From: Rhodovulum adriaticum
GTDB taxonomy: Bacteria > Pseudomonadota > Alphaproteobacteria > Rhodobacterales > Rhodobacteraceae
Direction: 5' to 3'
NCBI RefSeq assembly: GCF_004345735.1
Contig: NZ_SLXL01000001.1
Span: forward strand, 505,876 to 569,875
DNA length: 64,000 nt
Shown here: piece after piece, positions 238 through 50,635 of the stretch
Position numbering within the stretch: the first letter of the stretch is position 1
How the letters are laid out: every line of letters begins with the position of its first letter
Translations under genes and position numbers: made by a program
Notes under the pieces: model-generated
Databases searched by the model: none
Told to the model about the DNA's origin: nothing
Seen by the model: only the letters and a program-made list of their open reading frames with translations

Positions 238-512
238 CAGCCGACCACCCGTTTCCACGCCTGAATGGTGACATCCTCGAACAGCCCGGCCTTGGCATAG
301 GGGTCGTTCGCGGCCCATCCTTCGGCGGCGGCCTTGTCGGCCACGTCGATCACCACCAGCGATCCGCACATCGCGCCCGCGTCGTCCAGAAACGGCCCGG
401 CCAGTGTGACCACGCCGGTTTCGGCGACATAGTCCAGATGCGCCTGTCGGTTGGCGGTGCGGGTGTCCAGGTGGCCGGGCTTGTCCCGGCAGATCAGGGC
501 GTAAAGGGGCAT
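237..512 (-). CDS. YciI family protein
   Basis: This 91-residue protein begins MPLYALICRDKPG and carries the YciI fold signatures: an early hydrophobic strand, a conserved R/H pair (R23, H25 in RQAHLDYV), GPFLDD, and a C-terminal DPYAKAGLF. The family is a small ferredoxin-like dimer with a proposed His/Asp active site; its substrate is generally unknown. It starts 1 bp after the gpsA stop and its own stop overlaps the EVE gene start, so the genes are probably co-transcribed. The EVE-YciI pairing beside gpsA/tsaD is common in Rhodobacteraceae. Confidence 0.9.
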   Translation of the reverse strand: MPLYALICRDKPGHLDTRTANRQAHLDYVAETGVVTLAGPFLDDAGAMCGSLVVIDVADKAAAEGWAANDPYAKAGLFEDVTIQAWKRVVG

Positions 513-513
513 G

Positions 514-1479
514 TCATTCCTCTTTCAATGGGCGGGACAGCAGGGTTGTTACAGCCTCGGCAATGCTGCGCTGGCCGTCAATCACCTGCGCCACGCTTTG
601 GGTCACGGGCATGTCGATGCCGCGGGCCTGTGCGATGGCGGCGACGGCGCGGGCGGTTGCCGCCCCCTCGACCGTGATCTGGGGGTCGAAATACGCGCCT
701 TGCCCCAATGCCGCGCCATAGCGGAAGTTGCGCGACTGGGTGCTGGTGCAGGTCAGCACCAGATCGCCAAAACCCGACAGCCCCGCCAGTGTTTCGGCCT
801 CTGCCCCCTGCGCGCGGGCAAAGCGCTGCATTTCCGCGAAACCGCGGGTCATCAGCGCGGCGCGCGCACTGTCACCCAGGCCCGCGCCGATCACGATGCC
901 GGCGGCGATGGCCATGATGTTCTTCAACGCGCCGCCCAGTTCGGCACCTACCGGATCGCCGCTGCGATACAGCCGCAGGGTGGGCGTGGACAGCCGTTCC
1001 TGCAACGCGGTGCCATGGTCGGGATCGACACAGGCCAGCGTCAGCGCGGTGGGCAGGCCGCGTGCGATATCGGCGGCAAAGCTGGGGCCGGTCAGCACGG
1101 CGGGAACGGCAGTCGGGCAGGCCCCGGCGATGATGGCCGTCGGGCCGCGCCCGGTGGTCATATCCACCCCCTTGCAACAGGCGACCAGCGCGCGGCCATC
1201 CAGGGTGGCGGCAGCGTCACGCAGGAACCCGGCCAGCGCCTGCATCGGCACGGACAGCAGGACCGGGTCGCAGATGCGCAGCGCATCCAGATCGGCGGTC
1301 ACTGTCACGTTTTCGGGCAGGGGAACGCCGGGCAGGCGGAGGTTTTCGCGGGTTTTGACCATGTCCCGGGCCGCATCGCAGTTGCGCGCCCACAGGGTGA
1401 CGGGCCGACCGGCCTGGGCCAGGGTCACGGCCAGCGCCGTGCCAAAGGCGCCCGCCCCGGCGATTGCAATCCTGCTCAT
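514..1479 (-). CDS. gpsA: NAD(P)H-dependent glycerol-3-phosphate dehydrogenase
   Basis: GpsA reduces dihydroxyacetone phosphate to sn-glycerol 3-phosphate, the backbone precursor of phospholipids, in the cytoplasm. The 321-residue product starts [17 protein letters not shown], a Rossmann GxGxxG nucleotide site. It continues with [28 protein letters not shown], the catalytic-lysine region [14 protein letters not shown] and the [22 protein letters not shown] motif, all diagnostic. The frame stays open far upstream, but that stretch is antisense to the tsaD frame. The ATG at 1479 overlaps the tsaD stop (ATGA) and gives the usual family length. Confidence 0.96.
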
Positions 1480-2561
1480 GCCTTGGCTCCTTTCTTGCCG
1501 GTGCCCAGCAAGGCCGGGCTGGTGCGATCCAGTGGCCAGCGCGGGCGTGCGGCCAGGGTCATGTCGTCGCGATGGCCCAGCCGGAACCGTTCCAGCCCCG
1601 CCCAGGCGATCATCGCGGCGTTGTCGGTGCACAGCCGCAGCGGCGGCGCGACAAAGGGCAGGCCGGCCTCTGCCGCGACCTCTTGCAGCGCGGCGCGGAT
1701 GCTGCGGTTGGCAGCGACCCCCCCGGCGACGGCCAGCGCGCTCAGCCCCTCGGGGGCGGCGGCGATGGCGCGCCGGGCCTTGCCCGCCAGAACGTCGCGC
1801 ACGGCGGCCTGAAAGCCTGCGCACAGATCGGTGCGGTCCTGCACCGGGATGCCGCCCTTTTCGGCGATGATGCTGTCGCGGGCGCGCAGCAGGGCGGTTT
1901 TCAACCCCGAAAAGGACATGTCGCAGCCGGGCCGGTCCATCAGCGGGCGGGGGAAGGTAAACCGTTTCGCGTCGCCCTTTCCGGCCTCGGCCTCGACCGC
2001 GGGGCCGCCGGGCTGGGGCAGGGCCAGCAATTTCGCGGTCTTGTCGAACGCCTCTCCGGGGGCGTCGTCGATGGTGCCGCCCAGCCGGGTAAAATCGTCC
2101 ACCCCGCGTACTGCCAGAAACTGGCAATGCCCGCCCGAGGCCAGCAGCATCAGGTAGGGAAATTCCAGCCCGTCGGTCAGTCGTGGCGTCAGCGCGTGCC
2201 CGGCCAGGTGGTTCACCCCGATCAACGGCTTGCCCGTGGCCGCGGCCAGCCCCTTGGCGCACATCACGCCCGACAGGACGCCGCCGATCAGCCCCGGCCC
2301 GGCGGTCACGGCGATTGCGTCGATCCCGGCCAGCGTCACCCCGGCCTGGCCCAACGCCTGTTCCACGCAGATGTCCAGCCGCTCGGCATGGGCGCGGGCG
2401 GCGATTTCCGGCACCACCCCGCCAAAGGCGGCGTGCAGCGCGGTTTGCCCCTGCACGACAGAGGACAGGATTTCCGGCACATCGCCGCGCGCCCGCACCA
2501 CGGCGGCGCCGGTGTCGTCGCAGCTGCTTTCCAGCCCTAGGATGGTGAGGGTGTCGCCCAT
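1476..2561 (-). CDS. tsaD: tRNA N6-adenosine threonylcarbamoyltransferase
   Basis: TsaD transfers the threonylcarbamoyl group from TC-AMP to A37 of ANN-decoding tRNAs, working with TsaB and TsaE. The 361-residue product shows the N-terminal [10 protein letters not shown], the metal-binding HAERL and [11 protein letters not shown] histidine motifs, [20 protein letters not shown], and SGLKTALLR followed by [15 protein letters not shown] and [12 protein letters not shown] of the ASKHA fold. The ATG at 2561 gives the canonical start. It lies divergent from hemD with 75 bp between, and overlaps gpsA by 4 bp. Confidence 0.97.
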
Positions 2562-2636
2562 GGCTCTGCCGTTGCGTCGGGTCCGGCTGGCAGGTAACAC
2601 CAAGCCTGTTCCCTGCACAATCCCGCGAGGCACCCC

Positions 2637-3359
2637 ATGGCCGACCGTCTGCCCCTGCTTTTGATGACGCGCCCGCGCGCGCAATCGGATCGTTTCGTCC
2701 GGCAATTCACCGACCGCTTTGGTCCCGATTTCGCGATCGCCACCGCCCCGGTGATGGAAATCGTCCTGTATGAGGAACCGATTTCGCTGGCGGGTGTGGG
2801 CGGTGTGATGTTCACCTCTGAAAACGGGGTGGCGGGGCTGGCCCGTGTCACGCAGGATCGCAGCCCGCATGCCTATTGCGTGGGCGACCGCACCGCCAGC
2901 GCCGCGCGGGCCGAAGGGTTTTCCGCCCGCTCTGCCCACGGCACGGCCGAAGAACTGGTCAAGGTGGTTGCCGCCGACCCGCCCGGCGGGCGGCTGTTGC
3001 ACCTGCGCGGCGAACATGCCCGGGGCAACATCGCCGCAGCGCTGCGCGAGCGTGGGTTCGACGCGGATGAGCGTGTGGTCTATGACCAGCGCCCGCTGGA
3101 TTTCGACCCGGCGGTGAAACAGGCCGTTGCGGATGCGCCGCTGACCTATCTGCCGCTGTTTTCGCCCCGCTCGGCCGCGCTGGTGGCCAAGCAGTTGCAG
3201 GGCTGCCCCGGCAAGCTGGCCATCGTCAGCATGAGCGCCGCCGTCACCGCGGCCTGGGATGGGCCAGAGCCTGCGGCCTTCGTTCAGGCCAGTTATCCGG
3301 ACGGACCGGCCATGCTGGACGGGCTGGACACGCTGATTGCCGCAGCGCACGCGCCTTGA
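2637..3359 (+). CDS. hemD: Uroporphyrinogen-III synthase
   Basis: HemD cyclises hydroxymethylbilane with inversion of ring D to give uroporphyrinogen III, the branch point to heme, siroheme and cobalamin. The 240-residue protein shows [13 protein letters not shown] at the start, [29 protein letters not shown] and the C-terminal [13 protein letters not shown] pattern. HemD is poorly conserved, but the order tsaD - hemD - mitofilin-like - hemY-like is typical of alphaproteobacteria and supports the call. It is divergent from tsaD and followed at 82 bp by the mitofilin-like gene. Confidence 0.92.
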
Positions 3360-3441
3360 GGCTGTGAGGCCGACTCAGTATGGTGCGCGCGGTCGCGCAA
3401 GGGTGTGACAATTTGCGTAGCGAATCGAAAGGCGGGTTCCC

Positions 3442-4623
3442 GTGGCGAATACCGAAGACGAAAAGATCACCGAGAGCTCTACCGATCTGCCCCAGGGCGA
3501 CACCGCGGAGGAGCCCCGCGCGCAGGATGACACGCCCGGCGACGTGACCGAAGAAACCCCGGTCGAGGATGCCGAGATCGTCGAGGAAACCGCCGAAGAG
3601 GCCACCGACGAAACGCCAAAGGCCCAGCCCGAACAGGACAAGGCCAGCCACCCCGCGCCCCGGCGCAAGGGCGGGCTGCTGATGCCGCTGATCGGCGGCG
3701 TGCTGGCCGCCGGCGTGGGCTACGGCGCCGCAAACTATATCAAGCCCGAGGGCTGGCCCTTCCCCGGCACCGCCGATCCGGCCGCTGGGCAGGAACTGGC
3801 CACGCTGGCCGACCGCCTGAGCGCGCTTGAGGGCCGGGTTGCCGAACTGCCCACCGGCGCCAGCGCGGTGGAAATGCCCGACCTGTCTGGGTTCGAGGCG
3901 CGGATCGACGCGCTGGCCGAACAGGTCGCCGGGCTGGAAAGCGCGCTGGAAGAGGTGCAAATCACCGGCGGCGGGGACGAGGCCGCCGCCGCCCTGACCG
4001 CCTATCAGGAAGAGATCGAGGCGATGCGCGCCGAACTGGCCTCGCAGCGCGAGGAAAACACCCGCCTGGCCGATTCCGTGGCCGCCGTTGCCGATGAATC
4101 CGAGGCAGAGATTGCCGCCGCCATGGACCGCGCCGCCGCGGTCGAGGCGCGCGCCGCCATGATGCGGATCGATGCCGCGCTGGCCAGCGGGGCGCCCTTT
4201 GCCCCCGCGCTGGATCAGCTGGGCGATGCCGAGGTGCCTGCCGCGCTGGCCGATATCGCCGCGCAGGGCGTGCCCACCCTGGCGCAACTGCAATCCGACT
4301 ATCCGCCCGCTGCCCGCGCCGCCCTGGACGCCGCCCTGGAAGAACAGGCCGATGGTGATGTCGCGAACCGGATGACGGCCTTCTTGCGCAGCCAGTTGGG
4401 CATGCGCTCGCTCAGCCCGCGCGAGGGGGACGATGCCGATGCCGTGCTGTCGCGCGCCGAGGCTGCCCTGCGTGCGGGCGATCTGGCCGCTGCCCTGGAC
4501 GAACTGAACGCTCTGCCCGATGCCGCCCGCGCCGAAATGGCCGGCTGGGTCGCGGATGCAACCGCCCGGGCCGAAGCGGTTGCCGCCGCCGCGGCGCTGG
4601 AGCAGACCCTGAACAGCAACTGA
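3442..4623 (+). CDS. Mitofilin/Mic60-like inner membrane protein
   Basis: This 393-residue protein (GTG start) has an acidic, Pro/Thr/Glu-rich N-terminal tail (residues 1-65), a single membrane segment around residues 72-90 (LLMPLIGGVLAAGVGYGAA), a long alanine/glutamate-rich coiled coil (about 100-235) and a helical C-terminal domain. This is the architecture of alphaproteobacterial Mic60, the ancestor of mitochondrial MICOS, which shapes the inner membrane and contacts the outer-membrane assembly machinery. Location between hemD and a hemY-like gene is the known syntenic position. Assignment rests on architecture and synteny, because the sequence has low complexity. Confidence 0.82.
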   Translation: MANTEDEKITESSTDLPQGDTAEEPRAQDDTPGDVTEETPVEDAEIVEETAEEATDETPKAQPEQDKASHPAPRRKGGLLMPLIGGVLAAGVGYGAANYIKPEGWPFPGTADPAAGQELATLADRLSALEGRVAELPTGASAVEMPDLSGFEARIDALAEQVAGLESALEEVQITGGGDEAAAALTAYQEEIEAMRAELASQREENTRLADSVAAVADESEAEIAAAMDRAAAVEARAAMMRIDAALASGAPFAPALDQLGDAEVPAALADIAAQGVPTLAQLQSDYPPAARAALDAALEEQADGDVANRMTAFLRSQLGMRSLSPREGDDADAVLSRAEAALRAGDLAAALDELNALPDAARAEMAGWVADATARAEAVAAAAALEQTLNSN

Positions 4624-4636
4624 GGACGCCCGGAAC

Positions 4637-6034
4637 ATGCTTTGGTCTCTTCTCAAGATTCTCCTTTTCGTCGTCCTCGTGGCCGCGCTGACCTATGGCG
4701 CGAACCTGCTGATGGAAAACGGCCCCGGCCTGCGTGTCGCCGTGGGCGACGTGGAATTCGTGCTGGGACCGTTGCAGGCGGTCATCGTCGCGCTGCTGCT
4801 GGTCGCGGCGGTGTGGCTGGTGCTGAAGGTTGCCGGGCTGCTGGTGGCGGTGCTGCGCTTCATCAACGGGGATGAAACCGCGATTTCGCGCTATTTCTCG
4901 CGCTCGCGCGAACGGCGCGGGTTCCAGGCGCTGGCCGATGGGATGATCGCGCTGGCCTCTGGCGAGGCGCGGCTGGCGATGGCGAACGCGACCAAGGCGG
5001 AACGCTACCTGCGCCGACCGGAACTGACCAACATTCTGGCCGCCCAGGCCGCCGAGATGCTGGGCGACAACAAGAAGGCGACCGAAACCTACAAGAAGAT
5101 GGTCACGATCGACCAGACCCGGTTCGTGGGCGTGTGTGGCCTGATGAAGCAGAAGCTGGCCGAGGGCGACACCGACACCGCGATGAAGCTGGCCGAGAAG
5201 GCCTTTGCCATCAAGCCGCGTCACGGTGAAACCCAGGACACCCTGCTGAAGCTGCAGGCCCAAGCCGAGGACTGGAAAGGTGCGCGCGAAACGCTGAACG
5301 CCAAGCTGCGCCACGGCTCTCTCCCCCGCGACGTGCACAAGCGGCGCGATGCTGTGCTGGCCCTGTGTGAGGCCCGCGATTGCGCCGTGGACGGCAAGAT
5401 GGCCAAGTCCCACGAACTGGCGCTGGAGGCCAACCGCCTGTCGCCGGATCTGGTGCCCGCCGCGGTGATGGCCGCGCGCGCCTATGTGGAACAGGGCAAG
5501 CCCAACCTGGCCAGCCGCCTGATCAAGCGCGCGTGGGAGGCCCAGCCCCATCCCGACCTGGCCGCCGCCTATGCGGAAATCGTGCCGGACGAAACCCCGC
5601 AGGACCGGCTGACCCGCTTTGCCGAGCTGACCGCGCTGCGCGCCGATGACCGCGAAACCCGCATGCTGCTGGCAGAGCTGAACATCGCCGCCGAGGATTT
5701 CGTCGAGGCCCGCAAGGCCCTGGGCGATCTGCCCGAGACCGGCGCCACCGTGCGCGTGCTGACGCTGATGGCCGCGATCGAACGGGGGCAGGGCGCCGAC
5801 GACAGCGTGGTGCGCGGCTATCTGGCTTCGGCCCTCAGCGCGCCCGGCGAACCGCAGTGGATCTGCGAGAATTGCGGCACGATCCACGATTCCTGGCAGG
5901 CGGTCTGCAAGAATTGCGGCGCCTTCGACTCGATCACCTGGAAGACGGCCCCGGCGGCCCCGCTGGCCCTGCCGGGCGGGTCCGGCATGCTGCCGCTGCT
6001 GGTCGGCGGAACCGGCGCCGCGCAAAACGAGTGA
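4637..6034 (+). CDS. HemY-like TPR membrane protein with C-terminal zinc ribbon
   Basis: The 465-residue product starts MLWSLLKILLFVVLVAALTYGA and has a second hydrophobic segment at about residues 50-78, the two-helix HemY N-terminal domain, followed by TPR-like helical repeats (KATETYKKMV, AMKLAEKAFAIKP, AARAYVEQGKP). The tail holds two CxxC pairs, CENCGTIHDSWQAVCKNCG, a zinc-ribbon pattern. HemY-domain proteins were named from heme operons but no enzymatic step is proven; they are inferred scaffolds. It follows the mitofilin gene at 13 bp and is probably in its operon. Confidence 0.85.
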   Translation: MLWSLLKILLFVVLVAALTYGANLLMENGPGLRVAVGDVEFVLGPLQAVIVALLLVAAVWLVLKVAGLLVAVLRFINGDETAISRYFSRSRERRGFQALADGMIALASGEARLAMANATKAERYLRRPELTNILAAQAAEMLGDNKKATETYKKMVTIDQTRFVGVCGLMKQKLAEGDTDTAMKLAEKAFAIKPRHGETQDTLLKLQAQAEDWKGARETLNAKLRHGSLPRDVHKRRDAVLALCEARDCAVDGKMAKSHELALEANRLSPDLVPAAVMAARAYVEQGKPNLASRLIKRAWEAQPHPDLAAAYAEIVPDETPQDRLTRFAELTALRADDRETRMLLAELNIAAEDFVEARKALGDLPETGATVRVLTLMAAIERGQGADDSVVRGYLASALSAPGEPQWICENCGTIHDSWQAVCKNCGAFDSITWKTAPAAPLALPGGSGMLPLLVGGTGAAQNE

Positions 6035-6090
6035 GGGTGAAAAAGGGTCTACACACCCCCCGGTTTGGGTGCTAAAGACCCCGCCACGGC

Positions 6091-6166
6091 GCCGGTGTAG
6101 CTCAGCTGGTAGAGCACGTCATTCGTAATGATGGGGTCGGGGGTTCGAGTCCCTTCACCGGCACCA
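6091..6166 (+). tRNA. tRNA-Thr (anticodon CGU)
   Basis: A full cloverleaf can be folded by eye: the acceptor arm GCCGGTG pairs with CACCGGC, the D-arm is GCTCAGCTGGTAGAGC, and the anticodon stem-loop holds TTCGTAA (anticodon CGU, decoding ACG). The T-arm is GGGGGTTCGAGTCCCTT and the CCA end is encoded. The 3' end is the core of the attachment-site repeat that recurs at 50555-50571, so this gene is the insertion target of the island and was left intact by it. Confidence 0.96.
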
Positions 6167-6233
6167 CTGTCAAGCAGAAAAGTCCCGAGAAACCTTGGTT
6201 TCTTGGGGCTTTTGCTTTTTGAGGGCAGGATTT
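6151..6233 (+). repeat. attL: direct repeat over tRNA-Thr 3' end and terminator
   Basis: This stretch is the last 16 bases of tRNA-Thr plus 67 bases downstream. It matches 50555-50635 with a perfect 17-bp core (CCCTTCACCGGCACCAC) and then roughly 85-90% identity with 1-bp gaps. Direct repeats of a tRNA 3' end with an integrase gene beside one copy are the standard signature of tRNA-targeted integration. The crossover probably lies in the 17-bp core. Confidence 0.88.
6184..6220 (+). terminator. Rho-independent terminator after tRNA-Thr
   Basis: An 11-bp stem, CCCGAGAAACC against GGTTTCTTGGG (one G-U pair), with a tight TT loop is followed by GCTTTTGCTTTTT. It sits 18 bp after the tRNA CCA end. 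A second copy lies in the right-hand repeat at about 50586-50617. Confidence 0.8.
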
Positions 6234-6237
6234 TGCC

Positions 6238-6256
6238 CCACAAACTGCCCCACACA
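6238..6256 (-). repeat. 19-bp stub matching the 5' region of the island integrase
   Basis: CCACAAACTGCCCCACACA here is identical to 50432-50450, where it covers the possible GTG start and upstream edge of the integrase gene. Both copies have the same orientation, so read on the minus strand this copy runs straight into the attL repeat and tRNA. It is either the remains of a second integrase gene of the same family or a product of recombination between tandem elements. Confidence 0.6.
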
Positions 6257-6428
6257 CCGCTCTCGAAAGGCTCGCGCCGAGGCGTAGCCCATGGCCGCTC
6301 TTGAGCCGCGCAAATTCATCCTGATGGATTCTTCCAGCACACCCGGCGGCAGAACTCGCCCGCATTTCTGATCGAGACGATCTCGGCAGCGGCCTCCCCG
6401 GGCCCTGCGGCAAAAGTTCGAGGGTTAC

Positions 6429-38786: not shown

Positions 38787-39086
38787 ATTTCTGTCATCAT
38801 GCGCGGTTCGGATGCCAGTGCCGAAATGCACGGCGCGTCGGAAGAGGTCTACGGCTCGCTGATCCGCGCCGTTCAGGTCGACGCCACGGGCCATGCAGCG
38901 TCGGCGGTGAACGTCTCGAAAGGGCTGGCCTACGACATCTGATGGTTTGTGTCAGGTATTCGCAATACCTAACGATGTGCGGTGCGCCAGCTGCGTGATT
39001 TCGCAGGCGCAGCGAATGGCTGGAATGACGGGCCGCGCCGCGCCGCGGCGGAGCGAGGCGGTGGTGAATGGCCGGAACGGGCCGTT
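38787..39086. other. Gap with a possible gene remnant
   Basis: From the ATG at 38799 to a TGA at 38942 a 47-codon frame reads MRGSDASAEMHGASEEVYGS and ends NVSKGLAYDI; it looks protein-like but has no ribosome site and no family I recognise, so I treat it as a fragment. The rest is GC-rich non-coding DNA. Confidence 0.35.
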
Positions 39087-39491
39087 CTAGCCCTTAGGAC
39101 TTTGTACACGAGAAACACGATCCGCCTCGGCTAGGCCCGATCGGATCCTCCTCAACATTTCCATCCGTTCGTGCGCGCCCTCGGGTGCCCGGGGATCAAG
39201 GCAATAGACATCACAACCACGCTCAAGCTCCACGCGGTGTCCCAGCCGCTCCAACAAGCCTGTGGCTTCTGCCCGGATTGCCCGCCGTCTCGCCGTATCG
39301 TGGTCAACACCGTAGACCACGAGAAATGCGAAATTCGGCGGCCCATAGTGGCACTGAGCGCAGAATCCCAGGTCGAGATCCGGATGCCGCGCTTGCATCT
39401 CCACTTGGACCAGGGACAGGTCCTCGACGCGCGTATCCTGCGGCGGAGAGCCATTTCGATCGGTTGGGCAAATCTGGTCGTTCATCGTCAT
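39087..39491 (-). CDS. Hypothetical protein (134 aa)
   Basis: From the ATG at 39491 (or 39485) the product reads MTMNDQICPTDRNGSPPQDT and contains LGFCAQCHYGPPNFAFLVVYGVDHDTARRRAIRAEATGLLERLG. The CAQCHYGP element looks like a CxxCH site but there is no signal peptide, so heme attachment is unlikely. The C-terminal half is charged and helical. I do not recognise the family. The longer upstream frame to 39647 has poor composition. Confidence 0.55.
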   Translation of the reverse strand: MTMNDQICPTDRNGSPPQDTRVEDLSLVQVEMQARHPDLDLGFCAQCHYGPPNFAFLVVYGVDHDTARRRAIRAEATGLLERLGHRVELERGCDVYCLDPRAPEGAHERMEMLRRIRSGLAEADRVSRVQSPKG

Positions 39492-39962
39492 ACCTTGCAA
39501 TTGTTGTGAGCGAAAACGGCGACCGATCAGGATTAGCCGCCGCATTGAAGGCTGTTCTCGGCTGGCCGACGGCAAAGAGCTCCAGCAGGAATGATCGCAC
39601 CTCCTTGATGCTGCGTTTTTCTGGTCCGTGCCGGGGGTCATCATCATCAGGTCACCCGACCTGAAGAGAATTTTGGCTCTTTTCTTTCCGCTGAAAGAAA
39701 TTTCTTAAAAAAATGATGAGAACGCGATCAGGATGAGCCCGTCTTAGTTGTGGAGCTCCTCTCGTCCTTCGCGCCCAGAGCCTCTAACCCGAGCAAAACC
39801 ATGGGACCCGGTCGGTCGGACAGATCAGGATACACACGAGAGAAAACGAGGGGCAGATGAATTCCGAAAAGGACATCGCGCATGACCTGCTCCCCTTGGA
39901 GCCGGCGCTTACATGTCAGCTCTGTTCAGGGTTTGGTCCTCTTTCGACCGTTCATGATACAC
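39492..39962. other. Non-coding gap before the IS3 remnant
   Basis: AT-richer DNA with A-runs near 39690-39715. A short frame from the ATG at 39857 (MNSEKDIAHDLLPLEPALTC) follows a GAGGGG site and may be the truncated start of a gene cut by the IS3 insertion. Nothing else is supported. Confidence 0.45.
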
Positions 39963-40215
39963 TCACGGGGTGAGCTCGTCGCGGCCCGTATGGGGGCGGT
40001 GATGGTTGTTGTCGTCGCGCCACGTCGCGATCAGGCTGCGGGCATTGCGCAGGTTGGCAAACAGGTGTTCGTTGAGGCATTCGCCCCTGAAGCGGCCAAT
40101 AAAGCTCCCGACAAAGCCGTTCTGCATCGGTTTCCCCGGCGCGATGTAGTGCTATTCGATCCGGCGCTCCTCCGGCAATTTGAGGATGGCGTTCGATGTC
40201 AGCTCCGTGCCGTCT
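39963..40215 (-). mobile_element. IS3-family transposase OrfB fragment with nonsense codon
   Basis: The minus strand reads DGTELTSNAILKLPEERRIE, stop, [20 protein letters not shown], then [20 protein letters not shown] and [13 protein letters not shown], the C-terminal DDE-domain end of IS3 OrfB. The tryptophan expected before HYIAPGKP is a TAG stop, and the upstream two thirds are missing. It is a dead fragment that borders the recombinase cluster. Confidence 0.88.
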
Positions 40216-40325
40216 TTCTATGGCGCGACGCTCCGAGACGTGAGGCTGTCGTGCCCCGCAATCTGACATCGAAATCGGGCCGAAGGCGAAAAACCTTTTT
40301 TCTGAACAACATAGATGGTTCTCCC

Positions 40326-40373
40326 CTTTCTGTTTGCGGTCGCCCGCCGGGTGCGGCGACCGCAAACAGAAAG
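40326..40373. repeat. 18-bp perfect inverted repeat at the edge of the recombinase cluster
   Basis: CTTTCTGTTTGCGGTCGC (40326-40343) and its exact reverse complement (40356-40373) flank a 12-base loop; pairing extends imperfectly outward (CTCC/GGAGG). It lies 87 bp upstream of the first cluster gene. There is no T-run after it, so it could be an operator, a recombinase-binding or hairpin DNA site, or a transcript structure rather than a terminator. Confidence 0.8.
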
Positions 40374-40459
40374 GAGGAAAGACAGACAGAAAGAAGGAGC
40401 TTCCGGAACCTTGACGCGGCGCGATGGGCGTGCCGCAACCTGAGAAGGACCTACATTCA

Positions 40460-40972
40460 ATGTCCCCGGATGATTTCACACCCACCCCGGAACTCCTCGC
40501 CGCTGAAGCTCTTGGCGCCGCCAAAGATGCCGCACCGGTTCTGCAAAGCGCCATGGGCCTGCTGTCCCATCGCGATCGTCTGCTCTTGCGGGATTGCACA
40601 AGGGCATGCGCCAACGGTCAGCTGTTTTCGGAGCGTGCGCGCGCCGACCTTGCCGTACTGCTCGAACGGCTGGACGAAGAGGTCGAAGCGGAAACCGACT
40701 GGCGCTATATCACCGTGCAGGCCGGCGCTATCGGCGAGGAACCCCTCTATGACGGCGTCCTCCGGGCCGTCCGCACCGATCGGGGGATGCGCCTGGAGGC
40801 CTGCCACCAGGCGCTGGCGCGGGTGGCGCATGCGGTCTTCAGACTGCAAGCGCTTCTTGAAGCGGAGCAATGTGTCGAGGTGCTGCGCAACTCGATAGCG
40901 GACCGGAATCGCCGAGCAGGCGACAAGGCGGCAGCTCGCACCTTGTCCAAGCTCGAACATCGCCGTTGGTGA
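40460..40972 (+). CDS. Hypothetical protein of the recombinase cluster (170 aa)
   Basis: From the ATG at 40460 the product reads MSPDDFTPTPELLAAEALGA and is almost wholly helical (LLSHRDRLLLRDCTRACANG, RADLAVLLERLDEEVEAETDW). It ends in a basic tail (NRRAGDKAAARTLSKLEHRRW). I recognise no domain. The in-frame ATG at 40424 is possible, but GAAGGAC before 40460 is a better ribosome site. A GC-rich hairpin (40982-41006) follows its stop. Its place at the head of the cluster suggests an accessory role in the same process. Confidence 0.65.
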   Translation: MSPDDFTPTPELLAAEALGAAKDAAPVLQSAMGLLSHRDRLLLRDCTRACANGQLFSERARADLAVLLERLDEEVEAETDWRYITVQAGAIGEEPLYDGVLRAVRTDRGMRLEACHQALARVAHAVFRLQALLEAEQCVEVLRNSIADRNRRAGDKAAARTLSKLEHRRW

Positions 40973-40981
40973 GTTTACGCA

Positions 40982-41006
40982 CGGGCCCGGCGTCGAGCCG
41001 GGCCCG
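40982..41006 (+). terminator. GC-rich hairpin after the first cluster gene
   Basis: CGGGCCCGGC and GCCGGGCCCG are exact complements around GTCGA. No T-run follows, so it may attenuate rather than end transcription. Confidence 0.45.
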
Positions 41007-41181
41007 GGGCGCTCTTTGGTATGAAGCTCATGCGCCCGGATGCCACACCACGCCCGCAACCTGCCGGTTTCCGGCGGTGCTGGTCCGATCCCAGATCATG
41101 TCCGAAACAAGCGCGTGGCCGCGATCCTTAGCCCTTGGGGCGATGTTCGCGTCCCGCATCTCGACGAGGAGGCATTCCGAG

Positions 41182-43260
41182 ATGATGACACTGGAGAAAA
41201 TCTATCACGCGCTCGGCGCGGATCCGCTGCCTGCACCACTCGATCTCCTGGGTGACGGGTTTGCGCATCAAACCGCCCTCGGGCTCCTGGCAAAGCTAGA
41301 GGGTATTCCTCTGCGGGGCCTCGGTCGTCTCTCGACGGAAATTGCGGTGCGTTATCCGTTTGACCGCGTCCCTGTTCATGCGCGTTCCCTGTTCGAAAAC
41401 GACCTCCGTCGCTACCGCTCCTGGCGCCGTCTTGTTTTCGACAGTCTTACGCTGGGATTCGGGCGGCCGGTCGACCCGGATCCCTGGACGGGCGTGTATC
41501 GCCTCGCGAGCTTTCTTCACGGGAAGAGGCTAGCGAGCGCGGTCTACAACTTCCGGGCCCGCCTGCCTGCGGGAACCCTTCCCCGGGATGTCACGACCGC
41601 GCTCGCGCATGCCTGCGACCGCGACCTGTCGGGCTCAGAACGGCAGTCCTTTCGGCGCGGGGCACTGATCTTCGACAGCCTCTTCGGACAGGATGCCTTC
41701 CTCGGCTTCGGTCTCCTGCCGTCCAACCCGATCGGAGATTTCCCGGACTGGGAGCATCACGCGACACAAGCGCCTTTGCCCCCGAAATTGGAGGATGCCT
41801 ACGAAGCTGCGCCTGCGCAGATCCGCGCGGCGTTGCCATTCATCTGGCACATCGCGCTACGCGCAAAGGTATTCTGCGAAGGCGACAACCCCTCCGGCGA
41901 ACACCTTATGTCCGACGCGGCGCGCGATCGCCTGATCGCGATCACGCCAGCAGAATTCGGGTTCTCGGCTCCTTCGGAGGGAACCTACCGGTCCTACATC
42001 ACGCGGCTGACACGCTATTTCCGACCCGAGGCGGAGTTCCCGCCGATTGCCGTTCAACGGCGCGGGCCGGCTGCAGTGGGCTGGCATGATTTCAGATCGC
42101 GGCTGCGCGCCTGTGGGGTTTCGATGCAGCGAGCGTCCGTGCTCTCGGTGCTTTCGACCCGCGCGGAAAAGGCTGGCCTCGGACCATCCGACCTGACGCC
42201 CGGCTGGTGCGCAGAACAGGAGGCAGACCTGCATGGCCCAAATCGAAATGCTTTCAGGACCGCGTGCTTCCTGATCGATGAGGTGCGGGATCTGCCCGGG
42301 CTCCCGCCGTCTCTCCTGCCGGCAACGCCCCTCGGTCTGGAGCGCAAGCGCGCACTGCCTGGGGTTGGTAAAAAGCCTAAACCCGCTAAGGCCCCCACCG
42401 AGCCCACGGACCCGGTCGAGGCCGCCTGGGGCGTGTTCTTCAGGCGGGCACGCCACGATGGCGTGTCCGCGAGCGCGCTGCACCCGCTCTACACCATTAG
42501 ATCTGCCGCGCAAAAAGCAGGCCTCCGGCCGTGCGATCTTCGGCCAGACTGGTTGGCTTCGGTGCGCGACAGCGCCACGCGATCGCAAGCCGCGAAACTC
42601 AACATGGCATGCCGGCTGCTCGATACGCTCAAGGAACGTGACTCCCTCGCCCCGCTCTTGCCGACCATGCCCCTGTCGCTTCCGGATCGCCGGAGATCCG
42701 CTGCGGGCCTTTCGAAGGTTGCCATGGCCGAACTCGACCGGATCATCGCGCTGCAGGGGGTCTCGGAGAGCACGGCGCGGGCACACCGTATTGCGGTCAA
42801 GGCCCTCGCAGAGGTGACCGGCGTTGCGCCTGAGGACGGCAAGGCATTGCATCGGCTCCTCGCGCGCGACCCCGGTTCCGTCGATTGGCAACACCATTCG
42901 GGGCAGGCATCGCGCTATTCCAGTGCGCTCCGCAAGCTTCGCATCATCGCGCAACTCTCTCGGCACGAGCAATGGCACGGGCTGCAGGTGGCCGTTGTCG
43001 CGGCTGGCGTCGCGTCACGCGACAATCCCGTCCCCTATTTCTTCACGCTGGCCGAAGGCGACAGCCCCGGGATCCTTACCGCGTACTGGGTCACGGCACA
43101 GGCGCGCGCTTTCCGCTCGACGGTTCTCCATCCGCCGCATGGCCGCGCCGACCTCGCGGAAACCCTCGCGGCAAATGCCGCGCGCCTTGATGCGCTACAC
43201 GAGATCCCCTGCCTGCGCGACAGCGGCCTGCTTCCGCCAAGGCTCGGCGTCACCGGTTGA
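41182..43260 (+). CDS. Large recombinase-associated protein with internal repeats (692 aa)
   Basis: No catalytic motif is visible, but the protein contains two tandem copies of a 90-residue module at about residues 300-390 and 415-505. Both have the pattern AxKAGLxPxDLxPxW, then a helix with ACFLIDEV/ACRLLDTL and a closing LLPxxPL. A related KAGLEPDLSPE segment occurs in the 501-aa recombinase of the same cluster. The modules therefore look like repeated core-binding (arm) domains without a catalytic domain. The ATG at 41182 follows GAGGAGG by 10 bp; longer starts to 40870 lack a ribosome site. The role is inferred: DNA binding or architecture. Confidence 0.7.
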   Translation: MMTLEKIYHALGADPLPAPLDLLGDGFAHQTALGLLAKLEGIPLRGLGRLSTEIAVRYPFDRVPVHARSLFENDLRRYRSWRRLVFDSLTLGFGRPVDPDPWTGVYRLASFLHGKRLASAVYNFRARLPAGTLPRDVTTALAHACDRDLSGSERQSFRRGALIFDSLFGQDAFLGFGLLPSNPIGDFPDWEHHATQAPLPPKLEDAYEAAPAQIRAALPFIWHIALRAKVFCEGDNPSGEHLMSDAARDRLIAITPAEFGFSAPSEGTYRSYITRLTRYFRPEAEFPPIAVQRRGPAAVGWHDFRSRLRACGVSMQRASVLSVLSTRAEKAGLGPSDLTPGWCAEQEADLHGPNRNAFRTACFLIDEVRDLPGLPPSLLPATPLGLERKRALPGVGKKPKPAKAPTEPTDPVEAAWGVFFRRARHDGVSASALHPLYTIRSAAQKAGLRPCDLRPDWLASVRDSATRSQAAKLNMACRLLDTLKERDSLAPLLPTMPLSLPDRRRSAAGLSKVAMAELDRIIALQGVSESTARAHRIAVKALAEVTGVAPEDGKALHRLLARDPGSVDWQHHSGQASRYSSALRKLRIIAQLSRHEQWHGLQVAVVAAGVASRDNPVPYFFTLAEGDSPGILTAYWVTAQARAFRSTVLHPPHGRADLAETLAANAARLDALHEIPCLRDSGLLPPRLGVTG

Positions 43261-43379
43261 TGCGCGCCCGGATCACGGTGCGCGCGTCCCGGTGACCCCG
43301 CGGCCTCGAAAATTTTTTCGCCCTACGATTTCCGTCTGATCTTCATCGGACCGAACTCCTCGAAAAGAGGAGACGGTCC

Positions 43380-43979
43380 ATGACACTTCATCCAGACCAG
43401 CTGCCCAGGGTGGTGCCGGAGCATCGCGGTTTCCTGACGCGCGAAGAGATGGGATTCTATTTTCGGGTCGGCAAGAACGAGGTTGCCGGGATCGCGAAAC
43501 GCTTCGGCGTCCGCCCACTCGAGGGGCTTTTTCCCGAACGCGCGCTCTGGCGGCAGATCCTTGGGCTCGAACCGGTTACAGCGCAGGGCGAAGACCTGCT
43601 GCGCCTCCAGTTGCAGGACATCCACTGGGTCGCCGGTCGCACCGGCCGGGCCGTGTCGACGCTCCGGAACCGGATCCGGAGCGGCAGCTTCGATTACCCG
43701 CCAGGCGTCCAACTAGGAGCGATCTCGCCGGGGCGGACACCGCGCCTGCGCCGATGGCTTCCCGAAGTGATCGAGGCCGCGCGCGAGGGACGCGCGCTCG
43801 CGGGCATCCGGCCGGTTCCGCGCCAGGCACCGCTCGCGCAAGCCCGCGACAAGACTCCGCTGGCGGCCTGCGACGGCACTGCCCAGGACCGGGCCTGCAC
43901 AGTGGCACCCGAGCCCGGGGCCGTTCTCGCGGCCATTGCCAGTGGCGCCATGCCCCCCGCGGTCAAGCCCCCGCTGTAA
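43380..43979 (+). CDS. Putative DNA-binding protein of the recombinase cluster (199 aa)
   Basis: The product starts MTLHPDQLPRVVPEHRGFLT and has REEMGFYFRVGKNEVAGIAKRFGV (residues 21-45) and a second helical pair, HWVAGRTGRAVSTLRNRIRSGSFDYPPG (about 82-110), that read like helix-turn-helix or excisionase-type motifs. The C-terminal third is low-complexity. A GAGGAG site lies 8 bp before the ATG. A small DNA-binding protein between recombinase genes could act as a directionality factor, but this is inference. Confidence 0.6.
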   Translation: MTLHPDQLPRVVPEHRGFLTREEMGFYFRVGKNEVAGIAKRFGVRPLEGLFPERALWRQILGLEPVTAQGEDLLRLQLQDIHWVAGRTGRAVSTLRNRIRSGSFDYPPGVQLGAISPGRTPRLRRWLPEVIEAAREGRALAGIRPVPRQAPLAQARDKTPLAACDGTAQDRACTVAPEPGAVLAAIASGAMPPAVKPPL

Positions 43980-43984
43980 CGGAA

Positions 43985-44019
43985 TCCCTGTCCCTTTCGG
44001 CTCGGGAAAAGGACAGGGA
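43985..44019 (+). promoter_or_regulatory. Stem-loop between the small DNA-binding gene and the first recombinase
   Basis: TCCCTGTCC (43985-43993) pairs with GGACAGGGA (44011-44019), with CTTT/AAAA extending the stem. It sits 5 bp after one stop and 66 bp before the next start. Without a T-run it may be a processing or regulatory structure, or an inverted binding site. Confidence 0.6.
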
Positions 44020-44084
44020 ATTCATTACGCCTCACCCGATAACGGCCAATATTCCCGATAACGCTGACAAATGGAGTTTCTGCA

Positions 44085-46004
44085 ATGACAGCGCATCCGA
44101 CATTCGAAGACATCCTGCGGGCCGGTGCGGCCGACCCTGACAACACGGTCCGCCGATATGCCGCCGATCTCGACAAGATGCTGACACTCAACGGGATCAC
44201 GAAAGCCCATCGGGCCGAGATGGCCGGAACGGTTGAAACCTACCTGGCAATCGCACCGAAAGTCAGCCCCGAGGATGTGCAGCTGGCACGCCTGATCGGC
44301 GCAAGAGGCTGGACCCCCAAGACCTACACGCAGTACCGGAGCAACGGAAGACGGATGATCGAGCACGTCACGGGGGACCTTGCGGCACGCCGGGCCGTTC
44401 GAGATCGGGACGATGAATGGGAGGTCTTAAGTGACCGCGCCGGGCGCCTCAGAGCCGAGGGCCTGCTCACGAAGCACGAGTTGGCCGGCCTGCGTTCGCT
44501 CGCGCTCGCCGCGCGGCGCCGTGATATCCTGCCAACCACCCTCACGACGTCTCTTGTCCAGGATCTCGTTGACGCGGCAGCGAATTACGATGCGCGCAAG
44601 CAGATCAAGAGGGGAGCGACATGCCTGAACCGGCTCCGCGACCTGACATCGTTGCACAATCTTCTGCCCCCCGCCCCGCTCGGGGTCATCGAGACCGCGA
44701 CCCGCCAGCCGGTCCCGCTCGAGGGACCGTACGCGGTGGAAGCAGCCCGCTGGATCGAGACCGCGACCACGACCATTCCGGACAATATCAAGACCGCCGA
44801 GGCGCGAGAGACATTCAAGACCCAGCATGCGGAAGGCTCGCGGGGGATCTTTCGATCCGCGCTCAATCGCTACATCCGGACGGCAACAGCTCTCGAAGCT
44901 CACGCATCCTGCCCGCCCGATGGACTCGCCGGGTTGTTCGATCCGGCGACCGTTGAACGGGTCATCGCCAGCTGGATCGAGGACACCCGGGCCGAGGCGC
45001 GAACGGCCCTCTCGAAGCGGTCCCTCTACAGCTACGTCGACAAGCTGCGGATCACGCTCAGTCGTAACGGGTATCGCGCCGAAGCCCAGAAGGTCATGGA
45101 GCTGCGCAATGATCATGCCTTGCTGATCGAAGGGCGCATGCTGTCCCAGTTCATGTCCGCGACGACCGAGACATGGTGTCGGAACCTGATCGAGGACGAG
45201 GAAAAGACCTGCCTCTTCGAGTTGCAGCACGTTCGTTACTGGGAAATCGCCAAAAAAACACTGGCGGCGGCCGCGGCCGAGGGGTTCGATCTCGTCAGGT
45301 TGTCCCGCCCGGATGCCATGAAGGCTCTTCCACGCAGGAAGCGTGCCCGGGCGAAAAAGCTGCTGCGTCGTGCCCGGAGGTTTGGTGTCTGCGCGGCCTA
45401 CGCCGCGATCGGTCGGGAAGGCGTCCCGTTCCGCATGTGCAACATGTTGGCACTCTGCTCGGGCGGTCCTGTTCCCACGTTCTTCGATCATTCCGGCGCG
45501 GACGCGCCCCGCTTCGTGGTGAAGGTGCCGAACGAACTGATCAAGAACGGCGATTCTCTCACTATGCGCAACCAATCGATCCCCCCGATCCCCTTCGCCC
45601 AAGGTGAGGAAGGCTCCTTTGCCTTCGATATTCTCATGTTCTTTCGCGATGAAATCCGGCCTCTCTTTCCCGGTGCGTCAGCGTCGGAGGCGCTTTTTCC
45701 GGGACTGAATCCCGGAGATCACCATCTCAACGAAAAGACATTCAATAGGTGGCTGATGGCCTGTTCCTCCGAAATCGGTCTGCCGATGAAGTCGCACAAT
45801 TTCCGGCATGGCGAAGCCTCTCTGATGATCAACGAGGACCCCTCGTGCATCGAGACCATTGCAATGACGCTTGGCGACAGACCGGATACCGTACGGCGCT
45901 ATTATGCCTTCCTCCATCCGCAGAAACTGCTCCGTGAAATGCAGAAGAAACGCAATGCACGCCGCAAGGAGCTCATTGAAGCCCACCAGGAGGTCGCGGC
46001 CTGA
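44085..46004 (+). CDS. Tyrosine recombinase (639 aa), cluster member 1
   Basis: A long N-terminal half is followed by a tyrosine-recombinase catalytic domain: R450 in GVPFRMCNML, H571 and R574 in HNFRHGEASLMI, and tyrosines 606/607 in VRRYYAFLH. The second conserved histidine (LGH) is replaced by aspartate (LGDRPDTV). The protein is about twice the usual XerC/D length and unlike phage integrases. Its stop overlaps the start of the next recombinase (CTGATG), so the two are translationally coupled and probably act together. Confidence 0.85.
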   Translation: MTAHPTFEDILRAGAADPDNTVRRYAADLDKMLTLNGITKAHRAEMAGTVETYLAIAPKVSPEDVQLARLIGARGWTPKTYTQYRSNGRRMIEHVTGDLAARRAVRDRDDEWEVLSDRAGRLRAEGLLTKHELAGLRSLALAARRRDILPTTLTTSLVQDLVDAAANYDARKQIKRGATCLNRLRDLTSLHNLLPPAPLGVIETATRQPVPLEGPYAVEAARWIETATTTIPDNIKTAEARETFKTQHAEGSRGIFRSALNRYIRTATALEAHASCPPDGLAGLFDPATVERVIASWIEDTRAEARTALSKRSLYSYVDKLRITLSRNGYRAEAQKVMELRNDHALLIEGRMLSQFMSATTETWCRNLIEDEEKTCLFELQHVRYWEIAKKTLAAAAAEGFDLVRLSRPDAMKALPRRKRARAKKLLRRARRFGVCAAYAAIGREGVPFRMCNMLALCSGGPVPTFFDHSGADAPRFVVKVPNELIKNGDSLTMRNQSIPPIPFAQGEEGSFAFDILMFFRDEIRPLFPGASASEALFPGLNPGDHHLNEKTFNRWLMACSSEIGLPMKSHNFRHGEASLMINEDPSCIETIAMTLGDRPDTVRRYYAFLHPQKLLREMQKKRNARRKELIEAHQEVAA

Positions 46005-47509
46005 TGTCCCTGAAAGACGTTTTCCAGAAGCCGCACTGGCAGCATTTCCTCGGCCTTCCGGGTCTGGGCGATCTGGCAACACCCGCCATTCTTGCTGCGG
46101 ACGAGTTCTTCGACTTCATCGCGACACACGGCATCGCGGCGCCGGGATCTTCGGATTTCGCGACCTGGGCGCTCAATGCCGGTCCCGACGCCGCGGACAG
46201 GCGGCTCCTCGATCTCGGGCATGCCCTCGCAACCTGTCTGCCCGGTTTCGAGGGCCAGATCGCCGAAGCTCGGAAATTCGTGAAGGCCAGCATACGCTCG
46301 ACCGCGCTCTCGTCTGCCAAGGGCAAACCCGCAGATGCCCCGGGGGCAATGCACAGCCCGGTGCGATACGAACCCTGGGATCCGATTGCGCCGCCCGCAC
46401 GCCCGGCGCCTGTTCCGCGCCGCGTGTCCGTACAGCCGTGGGAACTCCCGCAGGATTGGCAAACCGCTCTTCGCCGGGCCGCCACCGGCATGCCCCGGAA
46501 TGGGGTCGCCATCGCGCCCTCCATCGTCAAGCGCATGCGCGAAAAGCTCTGCCAGCTTGCCTGGAGCGCGCGGAAGGCGGGGCTCGAGCCTGATCTCAGC
46601 CCCGAGGTGACGGAACAGTACCTCGTGGACCTTCGGACACGGATTGAAAAACGGCGCGACGGTTTGCGCTGGGCAACATTGCGCGCCAGCTTCGAAGAAC
46701 TGCACCGCTTCAGCCGGTTGATCGGCGCGCCCGGGGATACCGTGACGCATCTCTCCCGGATCTACTGGGATCTTCATGGCCGTGAACGGTTTCAGCTCGC
46801 TCTCAAGCATTTCAGAATCCTGGAAACGGGTCACACGACCGATTCCGTCCTCGACCTCGCAGAACAGCTACTTCATACCGCCAACACGCTTGAAAACGCC
46901 AACAAACGCCACCGGATGCGCAACGCGAGCTGTATCCTTGGCCTTTATCCGATCGCTCCGCTTCGGAACGCGTCCGCCTACCTCGTATTCGGTGAAACGC
47001 TATTTTGGCACGGGAACCAGTGGATCATTGATACGTATATTCAGAAGACCGCCCGGCATACTCCCGAGCGGTTCGTCATGCCCCTCGAACCCGAGACCGG
47101 TCGTTTCATCGATGCCGTCATCCTCGGCGACCGCTCCATCCTTCTTCTTCCGGAATTGCGTCGGCAGGTCCAGGAAATGCAGCGCCCTCTTTTCATTCTC
47201 GCGAACGGCAAACCGGCTGCCAAGAGCTATGCACCCCGGATTTTCAAGGCGCTGACGGGCAACAGCTTCACGACGACCCGCTCGATGCTCCACACGGACG
47301 AAGCCATTCACAATGGCGAGGCAGGCGTCGATAGTGCCCGGGCAGCTTGCCATCAGAAAGCCGGAAGCCGGATCGTCGAAAAATATCAGCTCGAGGCGGT
47401 CATGCGGCATGCAGTCGAACATAGCCGAGAGGCGAGTCGGAAGCGGCGCCTTGCATTGCTCGCGAAGACTGAAACCTCGTTATTTGAAACGGCGCCGCCC
47501 CTTGGGTGA
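46004..47509 (+). CDS. Divergent tyrosine recombinase-like protein (501 aa), cluster member 2
   Basis: The C-terminal domain keeps R321 (YPIAPLRNASAYLVF), a lysine turn (QKTARHTPERF), R426 in FTTTRSMLHTDEA, H450 (ACHQKAGS) and Y461 (VEKYQLEAV). The histidine of the HxxR box is a threonine. With the nucleophile retained, it may still be active or may be a structural partner. An upstream KAGLEPDLSPE segment resembles the repeats of the 692-aa protein. It is the last gene of the cluster and is coupled to member 1. Confidence 0.75.
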   Translation: MSLKDVFQKPHWQHFLGLPGLGDLATPAILAADEFFDFIATHGIAAPGSSDFATWALNAGPDAADRRLLDLGHALATCLPGFEGQIAEARKFVKASIRSTALSSAKGKPADAPGAMHSPVRYEPWDPIAPPARPAPVPRRVSVQPWELPQDWQTALRRAATGMPRNGVAIAPSIVKRMREKLCQLAWSARKAGLEPDLSPEVTEQYLVDLRTRIEKRRDGLRWATLRASFEELHRFSRLIGAPGDTVTHLSRIYWDLHGRERFQLALKHFRILETGHTTDSVLDLAEQLLHTANTLENANKRHRMRNASCILGLYPIAPLRNASAYLVFGETLFWHGNQWIIDTYIQKTARHTPERFVMPLEPETGRFIDAVILGDRSILLLPELRRQVQEMQRPLFILANGKPAAKSYAPRIFKALTGNSFTTTRSMLHTDEAIHNGEAGVDSARAACHQKAGSRIVEKYQLEAVMRHAVEHSREASRKRRLALLAKTETSLFETAPPLG

Positions 47510-47659
47510 CAGGCGGGGCGCGAGGCGCTCACACGAGCCTCGACGTGCTGAAGGTTCGGCCACGCGCTCGACTGCCCGCGCTATTCAGCGGGCCGCTACC
47601 GGGACCTTGAGACACGCGCGGTGCGCTTCCGGCTGCCGCGCGATAGGATCCCGGTATCA
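47510..47659. other. Short gap at the right edge of the recombinase cluster
   Basis: GC-rich DNA with no gene. I looked for a copy of the left-edge 18-bp inverted repeat here and found none. Confidence 0.5.
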
Positions 47660-48959: not shown

Positions 48960-50423
48960 CTAAACTCGGAATCCCGATTCCTTGGCAAGACGATCAATCT
49001 CTTTCCGAAGCGCCTCGATTGGGCGGGGCTCCCAAGTGTCAGTGGGGAAAGATACCATCTCTTGGTAAAGTGCCCGCAAACGTAAATCAGGGGTTGAGCC
49101 GTACACGGGACGCCCGCGGACCTTCCCAATCGAATGCCCCATGAGATAGGCGCGCTCCTCGTTGGTTAGCTTCGCAAAGCGCATGCGATCCTCGAAAGTG
49201 TGCCGGGTGCTGCCAATCGAGAATTTCGCCTCTAGACCGCCGGGAAGGAGCAATCCCTCTGGCGGGTTTGGAAAATAGTTATTCTCACGGAAGTACTTGT
49301 TCACAGCGCCCGAATAGCTGCCCTTGCCACGATATCGAGGGAAACCTCTGGGGTGTCTGCGCATCGCTTCGAGAGAAGCTCCGAGCAACACCACGGGGCG
49401 AAAAGACGCCGTATTCTTGATTTGCCGTTTCTGTTCGCCGTCCCGCACGGTCTGCAAGAGAATGTGGGGGATCGGATGGTCGAGATGAATATCCGATTCC
49501 GGCAAATTATATATCTCAGACTGCCTCGTTCCACTGTCGGCGGCAATAATTGTTATATCGCGCGCCTCGTCATTCAGGCCCTCGAGCATTTCGCCCCTGA
49601 CCAGACGCGATACCCACACCACGGGTAGCGCAAGCTTCTTCCCATCATTCGTTCGATCGTCGAATGCAATCTTCTCGATTGCTTGGCCGATAAATGGATT
49701 TTTTCGATGACTTTTCGGAATATCGAACTTCCAATAGTAAGCATCGACAATCTGCCCCATGAAGCGAATTCGCTTATTGACGTGATTGGTGGTTACCTCT
49801 CCACCGTCACGCCGTGCTTTCCAGTATTTGCAGAACCTCATTGCATCGGCTTCGGTTATGTCACACACGGGCTTGTCCATGCAAACCTCGGAAAAAACCT
49901 TTGCGGCATTGATGTATTTGTTTCGCCATTCCCGAAGTTGATTGGCATTCTTTGATGCAATGTCCGCTGCCTTCAGTTCCTCGACGATCGCTGGCATTTC
50001 AGAGACCTTGATTTTCGGATAATCGAGGACACCGAGAGCCGCAGGAACAAGTGCGGATTGGACGCCGGAATTCACGACTTTCTCAATCCGTGTCACAAGA
50101 TCGGTGATCGATCCGTGCACCAGTTCTTGCATCGGGACGTATCGCATGTCCCAAGCTTCCAGTAGCGAGATGGCGCCAGAAAAGGCGTTGGTCGTCGATC
50201 CGTCTTCCTCGCGAGCAAGCCTGGCCTCCCAGTCGGCCTTCAAGGCTTTGATTGCGACAGCGAACCGGGCCCGCGCCTCTGTCTGGTCACATGTCTTGAG
50301 CGACCTGTTGATCTCGCGTCGAGGTTCGACCTCGGCATAACGTTTCGGCACCCGGATCCGCATGTAGTAGACGCGCCCCCGGCGCTCGATTCCATCCACA
50401 CAAGCCGAGTTCGCATTGCCCAT
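48960..50423 (-). CDS. Tyrosine-recombinase integrase of the tRNA-Thr island
   Basis: The 487-residue protein starts MGNANSACVDGIERRGRVYYMRIRVP, written here in part: an N-terminal arm-binding domain of the DUF6538 kind (residues 1-60). It continues with a core-binding helical domain and a catalytic domain with R in DSGTRQSEIYNL, RHTFEDRM after GST, LMGHSIG and the nucleophile in RPVYGS. I chose the ATG at 50423, which has GGAG 7 bp ahead; a GTG at 50447 is also in frame. It reads away from attR, about 130 bp off, and is the likely integrase for this island. Confidence 0.92.
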   Translation of the reverse strand: MGNANSACVDGIERRGRVYYMRIRVPKRYAEVEPRREINRSLKTCDQTEARARFAVAIKALKADWEARLAREEDGSTTNAFSGAISLLEAWDMRYVPMQELVHGSITDLVTRIEKVVNSGVQSALVPAALGVLDYPKIKVSEMPAIVEELKAADIASKNANQLREWRNKYINAAKVFSEVCMDKPVCDITEADAMRFCKYWKARRDGGEVTTNHVNKRIRFMGQIVDAYYWKFDIPKSHRKNPFIGQAIEKIAFDDRTNDGKKLALPVVWVSRLVRGEMLEGLNDEARDITIIAADSGTRQSEIYNLPESDIHLDHPIPHILLQTVRDGEQKRQIKNTASFRPVVLLGASLEAMRRHPRGFPRYRGKGSYSGAVNKYFRENNYFPNPPEGLLLPGGLEAKFSIGSTRHTFEDRMRFAKLTNEERAYLMGHSIGKVRGRPVYGSTPDLRLRALYQEMVSFPTDTWEPRPIEALRKEIDRLAKESGFRV

Positions 50424-50431
50424 TTTCTGCT

Positions 50432-50450
50432 CCACAAACTGCCCCACACA
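50432..50450 (-). repeat. 19-bp copy at the integrase 5' end
   Basis: CCACAAACTGCCCCACACA, identical to 6238-6256 next to the tRNA. Here it lies between the two possible integrase start codons and just upstream. Confidence 0.7.
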
Positions 50451-50554: not shown

Positions 50555-50635
50555 CCCTTCACCGGCACCACCCTCAGCAGAAAAGTCCCGAGAAACCCTG
50601 GTTTCTTGGGGCTTTTGCGTTTCAGGGCCGGATTT
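50555..50635 (+). repeat. attR: copy of tRNA-Thr 3' end and terminator
   Basis: The 17-bp core CCCTTCACCGGCACCAC is identical to the tRNA-Thr 3' end at 6151-6167, followed by a diverged copy of the terminator hairpin (50586-50617). No tRNA sequence precedes the core, so this is the displaced chromosomal 3' end, and marks the right boundary of the island. Confidence 0.88.

Follow-up and report, generated by a model that had tools for sequence, protein, structure and literature searches.

A four-gene module of Rhodobacterales with two coupled tyrosine recombinases that resembles known multi-recombinase mobile elements

Known multi-recombinase elements and the gene set of the module

The strand-biased circularizing (SE) elements carry IntA, Tfp, IntB and Srap, that is, two tyrosine recombinases, a non-catalytic recombinase-like protein and a small companion. 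They reside on plasmids and chromosomes and have known ends, with imperfect inverted terminal repeats and a 6-bp spacer or footprint (PMC10214605). Within the sections of that paper available here, relatives of Tfp and Srap are not reported from Alphaproteobacteria, and ginC-ginD blocks were not found there either. GInt, or ginABCD, encodes two catalytic recombinases, a third whose active site is partly or wholly missing, and a fourth protein of small size, on islands with cargo; the available sections of its description report all four genes as essential and record gin operons in Alphaproteobacteria (PMC5385486). Tn554 (TnpA, TnpB, TnpC) has two tyrosine recombinases and a small protein, and RIT elements have several adjacent recombinase-type genes (PMC10214605, in the sections available). 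The gamma-mobile-trio elements are described, in the part of the report available, as mobile and as carrying much cargo for defence and offence (PMC12715929).

The window, by which we mean the whole 64,000-nucleotide stretch of Rhodovulum adriaticum DNA that was analysed, contains a compact cluster that looks like an undescribed relative of these multi-recombinase mobile elements. Five plus-strand open reading frames (170, 692, 199, 639 and 501 aa), already picked out by a sequence-only reading of this DNA, were all recovered from the ORF list in the same places. The longest forms of the first two, made through upstream start codons, are 182 and 796 aa, the 170-aa form starting at 40460 and the 692-aa form at 41182, and position 46004 is both the end of A and the beginning of B. 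The cluster and its left neighbours are as follows.

39087-39491, minus strand: D-like gene, 134 aa, found now and then beside the module (36% over 100 aa with the gene that follows C in locus L093)
39883-40213: remnant of an IS3-family transposase (rve_3; multi-copy matches in relatives)
40460-40972, plus strand: 170-aa ORF, not a conserved member, no family match
41182-43260, plus strand: gene C, 692 aa, predicted recombinase-derived helical repeat protein without catalytic domain (AF2 model, repeat profiles)
43347-43379, plus strand: predicted hairpin over the G3 ribosome-binding site (leader alignment, folding)
43380-43979, plus strand: gene G3, 199 aa, small companion, possibly DNA-binding or excisionase-like (profile, weak PHROG match)
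44085-46004, plus strand: gene A, 639 aa, large tyrosine recombinase (conserved residues, profile matches)
46004-47509, plus strand: gene B, 501 aa, second, highly divergent tyrosine recombinase (motifs, Cre-like model)

Searched for in other genomes, the five-gene order that had been taken for a single unit held for four genes, which co-occur, and broke down for the 170-aa gene, which has no counterpart in the module loci compared and gave a distant match in 2 of 294 other genomes, one of which (G119) carries the module on a different contig. Judged by homology and gene order, the conserved unit of Rhodobacterales is thus a four-gene module consisting of C, G3, A and B. Of 295 genomes from the family to which the window belongs, 23 contain relatives of B, and 19 of 394 genomes match C, own genome included in both searches; scanning named genomes with A yielded 21 named loci, the genera of which we take to belong without exception to Rhodobacterales. 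G3 and A are present in all 21 and B in 18; among those without B, L107 is decayed, and L108 and L109 end at or just past A. Across many marine bacteria, modules lie on plasmids (Thioclava, Falsirhodobacter, Limimaricola and others) as well as on chromosomes and in genomic islands: among 72,556 plasmids, searched at E 1e-5, A matches eight records and B five, all of Rhodobacterales. In searches that included these plasmids and the named genomes, neither protein had a match beyond Rhodobacterales, and two scans of viral contigs gave no loci.

By profiles, the order across loci is G3, then A, then B. Usable lengths of both A and B are available from 35 loci, the window among them, and in every one the two genes abut or overlap; in L089, where B is split, it is the first part that lies next to A. 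The position of C varies. It is encoded at a length of at least 350 aa in 16 loci, a count from which shorter fragments (e.g. L043, L053) were lost to the length filter and in which many loci have short flanks; it lies upstream of G3 in ten (window, L050, L089, L090, L091, L096, L097, L098, L101, L102) and downstream of B in six (L032, L093, L095, L099, L100 and, on the opposite strand, L104). Since C measures about 390-590 aa in nine of the 16, it is possibly shortened or split there.

The compact multi-recombinase unit does recur across genomes, as the sequence-only reading led one to expect, and reaches no named family's cut-off: none of the five proteins matched Pfam at the curated cut-off, nor NCBIfam or PADLOC at E up to 1. 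For gamma-mobile-trio, the negative NCBIfam result concerns a library from which its models are possibly absent (NF040692 is listed there as recomb_assoc). The likeness to multi-recombinase systems that had been noted also stands, with RIT a poorer fit than SE and GInt, neither of which had been named. In the sections available, RIT elements are described with three recombinases of 315-410 aa, each with the catalytic Tyr, whereas two proteins have it here and C lacks the catalytic domain, so that membership in RIT was rejected (PMC10214605). Tn554 is described there with one ordinary and one large recombinase and without a counterpart of Tfp, whereas both recombinases are large here and C is added, a comparison made by description (PMC10214605).

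The module shares with SE the two tyrosine recombinases, the non-catalytic relative, the small companion and the occurrence on plasmids and chromosomes. The SE order intA-tfp-intB-srap, which places Tfp between the two recombinases and srap at the end, does not occur: here nothing separates A from B, the small gene precedes them, and C stands outside the pair (PMC10214605, available sections). Likewise the ginABCD order, with the small gene last, is absent, as G3 precedes A and C has no fixed place (PMC5385486, available sections). C can be likened to Tfp and GinC in having no catalytic residues (PMC10214605, in part), but GinC retains integrase-domain matches, whereas C is made up of N-terminal-domain repeats (PMC5385486, in part). 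Because gene orders differ, C is unlike GinC and the likeness is one of description, the module, which resembles SE and GInt in make-up, is placed as probably working like them rather than as a member. The resemblance seen is one of make-up, and kinship with SE or GInt proteins would be no more than a possibility, as matches of A and B were confined to Rhodobacterales in the plasmids and genomes searched.

The gene products and the G3 leader

By their catalytic residues and predicted fold, A and B are both tyrosine recombinases: the catalytic Arg, Lys, Arg and Tyr are kept in each nearly without exception. In the alignment of A, R450 and K487 are conserved in 38 of 38 rows, and H571, R574 and Y607 in all 36 rows with a letter at these positions; L037-L041, duplicates of named loci, were excluded from the conservation counts of A and B. 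The profile of A matches XerC-like and XerD structures in the PDB (E 4e-7) and A itself matches PHROG 1 (integrase, E 1.3e-4), while its match to PF00589 (E 0.011) falls below the cut-off. B has a Cre-like predicted structure. Pairwise identities of A and B co-vary across loci (r 0.97, 595 pairs), which is partly expected from linkage.

C is homologous to the gene after B on the Thioclava plasmid p5 (30%, E 5e-65). Its AF2 model is all-helical, with no beta strands (pLDDT 84, pTM 0.36). The A profile alone finds three repeats in window C and the B profile finds none; an iterated profile, whose E-values iteration may inflate, finds four copies at about residues 102-185, 300-385, 415-498 and 597-687, and one in A at 110-200. 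According to these profiles and the model, C is composed of four copies of the N-terminal domain of A, from which it is derived, without a catalytic domain.

G3 lies directly upstream of A in most loci according to its profile. Its match to a PHROG excisionase is weak (E 0.011), and it is possibly a DNA-binding or excisionase-like factor. The hairpin in its leader was aligned across 19 loci, chosen by eye among G3 leaders; the sequence block preceding G3 appears to differ in L035, L036, L054 and L055. The window leader folds at -25.8 kcal/mol (z -4.25), and the z values of nine folded leaders range from -4.65 to -0.04, with no excess stability in L093 (-0.45), L103 (-0.44) and L050 (-0.04). 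Since the leader also contains conserved sequence such as CCATCTCCT, a protein-binding site is possible as well. At L046:11491-11502, ten bases are inverted to the left arm of the hairpin, at the stop codon of B and at the point where homology to L045 ends; this inverted match of 10 bp is seen in L046 only.

Exchange, probable island setting and proposed mode of action

Exchange is seen between two genera. Over 8,574 aligned bases, L093 of Arenibacterium halophilum and L095 of Pseudooceanicola onchidii are 89.7% identical; the shared stretch starts 64 bases ahead of G3 and runs to the end of a small gene that follows C, and the surroundings of the two loci are unlike; L095 and L098, the latter from P. 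marinus, have in common only pieces of about 64-68%. The presence of a unit of about 90% identity between unlike flanks in two genera shows that it is exchanged.

The reading that we favour, with somewhat more confidence than doubt, is that G3, A and B together with C form the recombination unit of a mobile element that would work like SE and GInt. The two different recombinases from coupled genes would team up in a single mixed complex to cut and join DNA at the element ends, and the four non-catalytic A-type domains of C would provide a DNA-binding scaffold for this complex. G3 would be a small factor setting direction or timing, and the hairpin covering its start would keep its translation low. 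What we counted for an element is the adjacency of A and B with their co-varying identities, the conserved catalytic residues, the Cre-like B, the A-derived C, the exchange between L093 and L095 and the spread over plasmids and chromosomes. Counted against it are the failure to find ends, target or empty site, the ordinary integrases nearby, a C that is short or split in several loci, and the limitation of matches to Rhodobacterales.

As to the ends, the loci compared yielded neither terminal repeats nor a target site or an empty site for the module, although SE has known ends (PMC10214605, in part), and no direct repeats were convincing as its attL and attR; those in the window fit a tRNA-Thr island instead.

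6151-6233: probable left attachment site, tRNA-Thr 3′ end and downstream (90.4% repeat of 50555-50635)
48960-50447, minus strand: ordinary island integrase, DUF6538 and integrase (PF20172, E 4e-13; phrog_1, E 1.4e-12)
50555-50635: probable right attachment site of the island (direct repeat of 6151-6233)

The tRNA-Thr gene lies at 6091-6166 and the right repeat directly beyond the integrase, and the nearest relative, G306, matches the window at 80% over 2-6294 and then diverges. Taken together, these findings place the window module most likely inside a tRNA-Thr island of about 44 kb (6151-50635) with its own ordinary integrase. The earlier suggestion that the cluster may be a mobile unit of its own finds no support here: no module ends were found, and in the window the module would be carried passively, close to one end of the larger island that this separate integrase moves. 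The probable island also contains nitrate-reductase, NnrS and efflux genes, named from reading the ORFs, and parts of it are 93-94% identical to another contig of G306.

Left of the cluster, the dead IS3 fragment that had been seen there was confirmed (39978-40127, minus strand, 50 residues against rve_3, E 2.3e-17). A 50-base inverted repeat at 40325-40374 (90% over 51 aligned), between this remnant and the 170-aa ORF, is perhaps a terminator. The D-like family is also matched at L046, L055 and L095, and three genomes of the genus carry DNA copies of the window's D-like gene with 83% similarity. A 165-base repeat at 38921-39084 has copies in several genomes of the genus, two of them on contig C21 of the own genome.

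It could be that no module moves itself, and that islands and plasmids spread it while it serves another recombination task such as multimer resolution or cargo rearrangement. An ordinary integrase is close to the module in the window, L095, L097, L105 and L106, and a DUF6538 protein, unmatched by PF00589 at E 0.01, in L044, so that the spread of these modules could stem from such integrases. In L044 and L105 a convergent gene and a tRNA-Asn come after the module, and the convergent gene of L105 encodes an integrase (PF00589, E 2.5e-9). In L103, L106, L108 and L109 the module adjoins an intact tRNA-Ser, and all four genomes hold a partial tRNA-Ser copy with an adjacent ordinary integrase, in three of the four on another contig; the tRNA-Ser site is therefore not creditable to A and B. 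The failure to find ends of the module's own fits this alternative as well. However, a local profile, which misses some such as the L044 protein, finds ordinary integrases in 9 of 41 loci, Pfam integrases make up 2 of 93 flank proteins, and the near-identical unit of L093 and L095 stops at the module genes amid unlike surroundings. On balance we regard a purely passive module as rather unlikely. At L107 of Yoonia maritima (G434:C9:497884-514382), an intact and a partial tRNA-Ser lie 16 kb apart, and a decayed module follows the partial copy.

If the favoured reading of a recombination unit is right, the module bears on why some elements depend on more than one kind of recombinase (two or three) together with a relative that has no catalytic function, and offers a clean case for division of work, since the non-catalytic partner is an array of a domain of the active one and the active enzymes are coupled. 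More tentatively, and with less than even confidence, such modules may define an undescribed class of Rhodobacterales mobile elements with two coupled recombinases and a four-domain scaffold, which would insert into plasmids and islands, carry defence systems and be the alphaproteobacterial counterpart of SE, GInt and gamma-mobile-trio. In that case this abundant marine group would have a further vehicle, unnamed in the family libraries searched, for genes of islands and plasmids, including some defence genes.

Neighbouring defence genes and active-site residues

Several modules stand beside defence genes, namely CBASS in L032, HerA-SIR2 in L093, Pycsar in L097, an NsnA-like gene in L095, a HamB-like helicase in L102 and type I restriction in L096, and a CRISPR-type array lies near G3 in L104. 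One could suppose from this that the recombinases serve the turnover of defence genes, by capture or swapping at island ends, which we consider improbable. Seven of ten neighbour proteins were matched in a defence check, but the ten had been picked by hand and three were unmatched. In an unpicked comparison at E 1e-8, 273 families were recovered for 93 flank proteins against 54 for 62 controls, tables that count families, not proteins (the commonest family in 3 of 93 against 1 of 62), and from which no clear excess can be read; beside the window module, no defence gene was recognised. The Pycsar pair, a cyclase with a TIR effector, lies upstream of the module at L097:3043-4689. The CRISPR-type repeat motif at L104:6830-8311 has 17 bases and 23 copies and ends at or near the start of G3.

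The sequence-only reading was right about the motifs. A shows HNFRHG, followed by LGD and Tyr607, and B shows TTTR at the HxxR position and Tyr461. The idea of that reading that the two recombinases are each partly inactive and that, joined in a hetero-complex, each supplies the histidine which the other is missing, drawn from the absence of the second His/Trp in A and of the first His in window B, is hardly tenable, because the B histidine is kept in 17 of the 35 loci with both genes, A still lacks its second His/Trp in 16 of these 17, and the changes do not co-vary.
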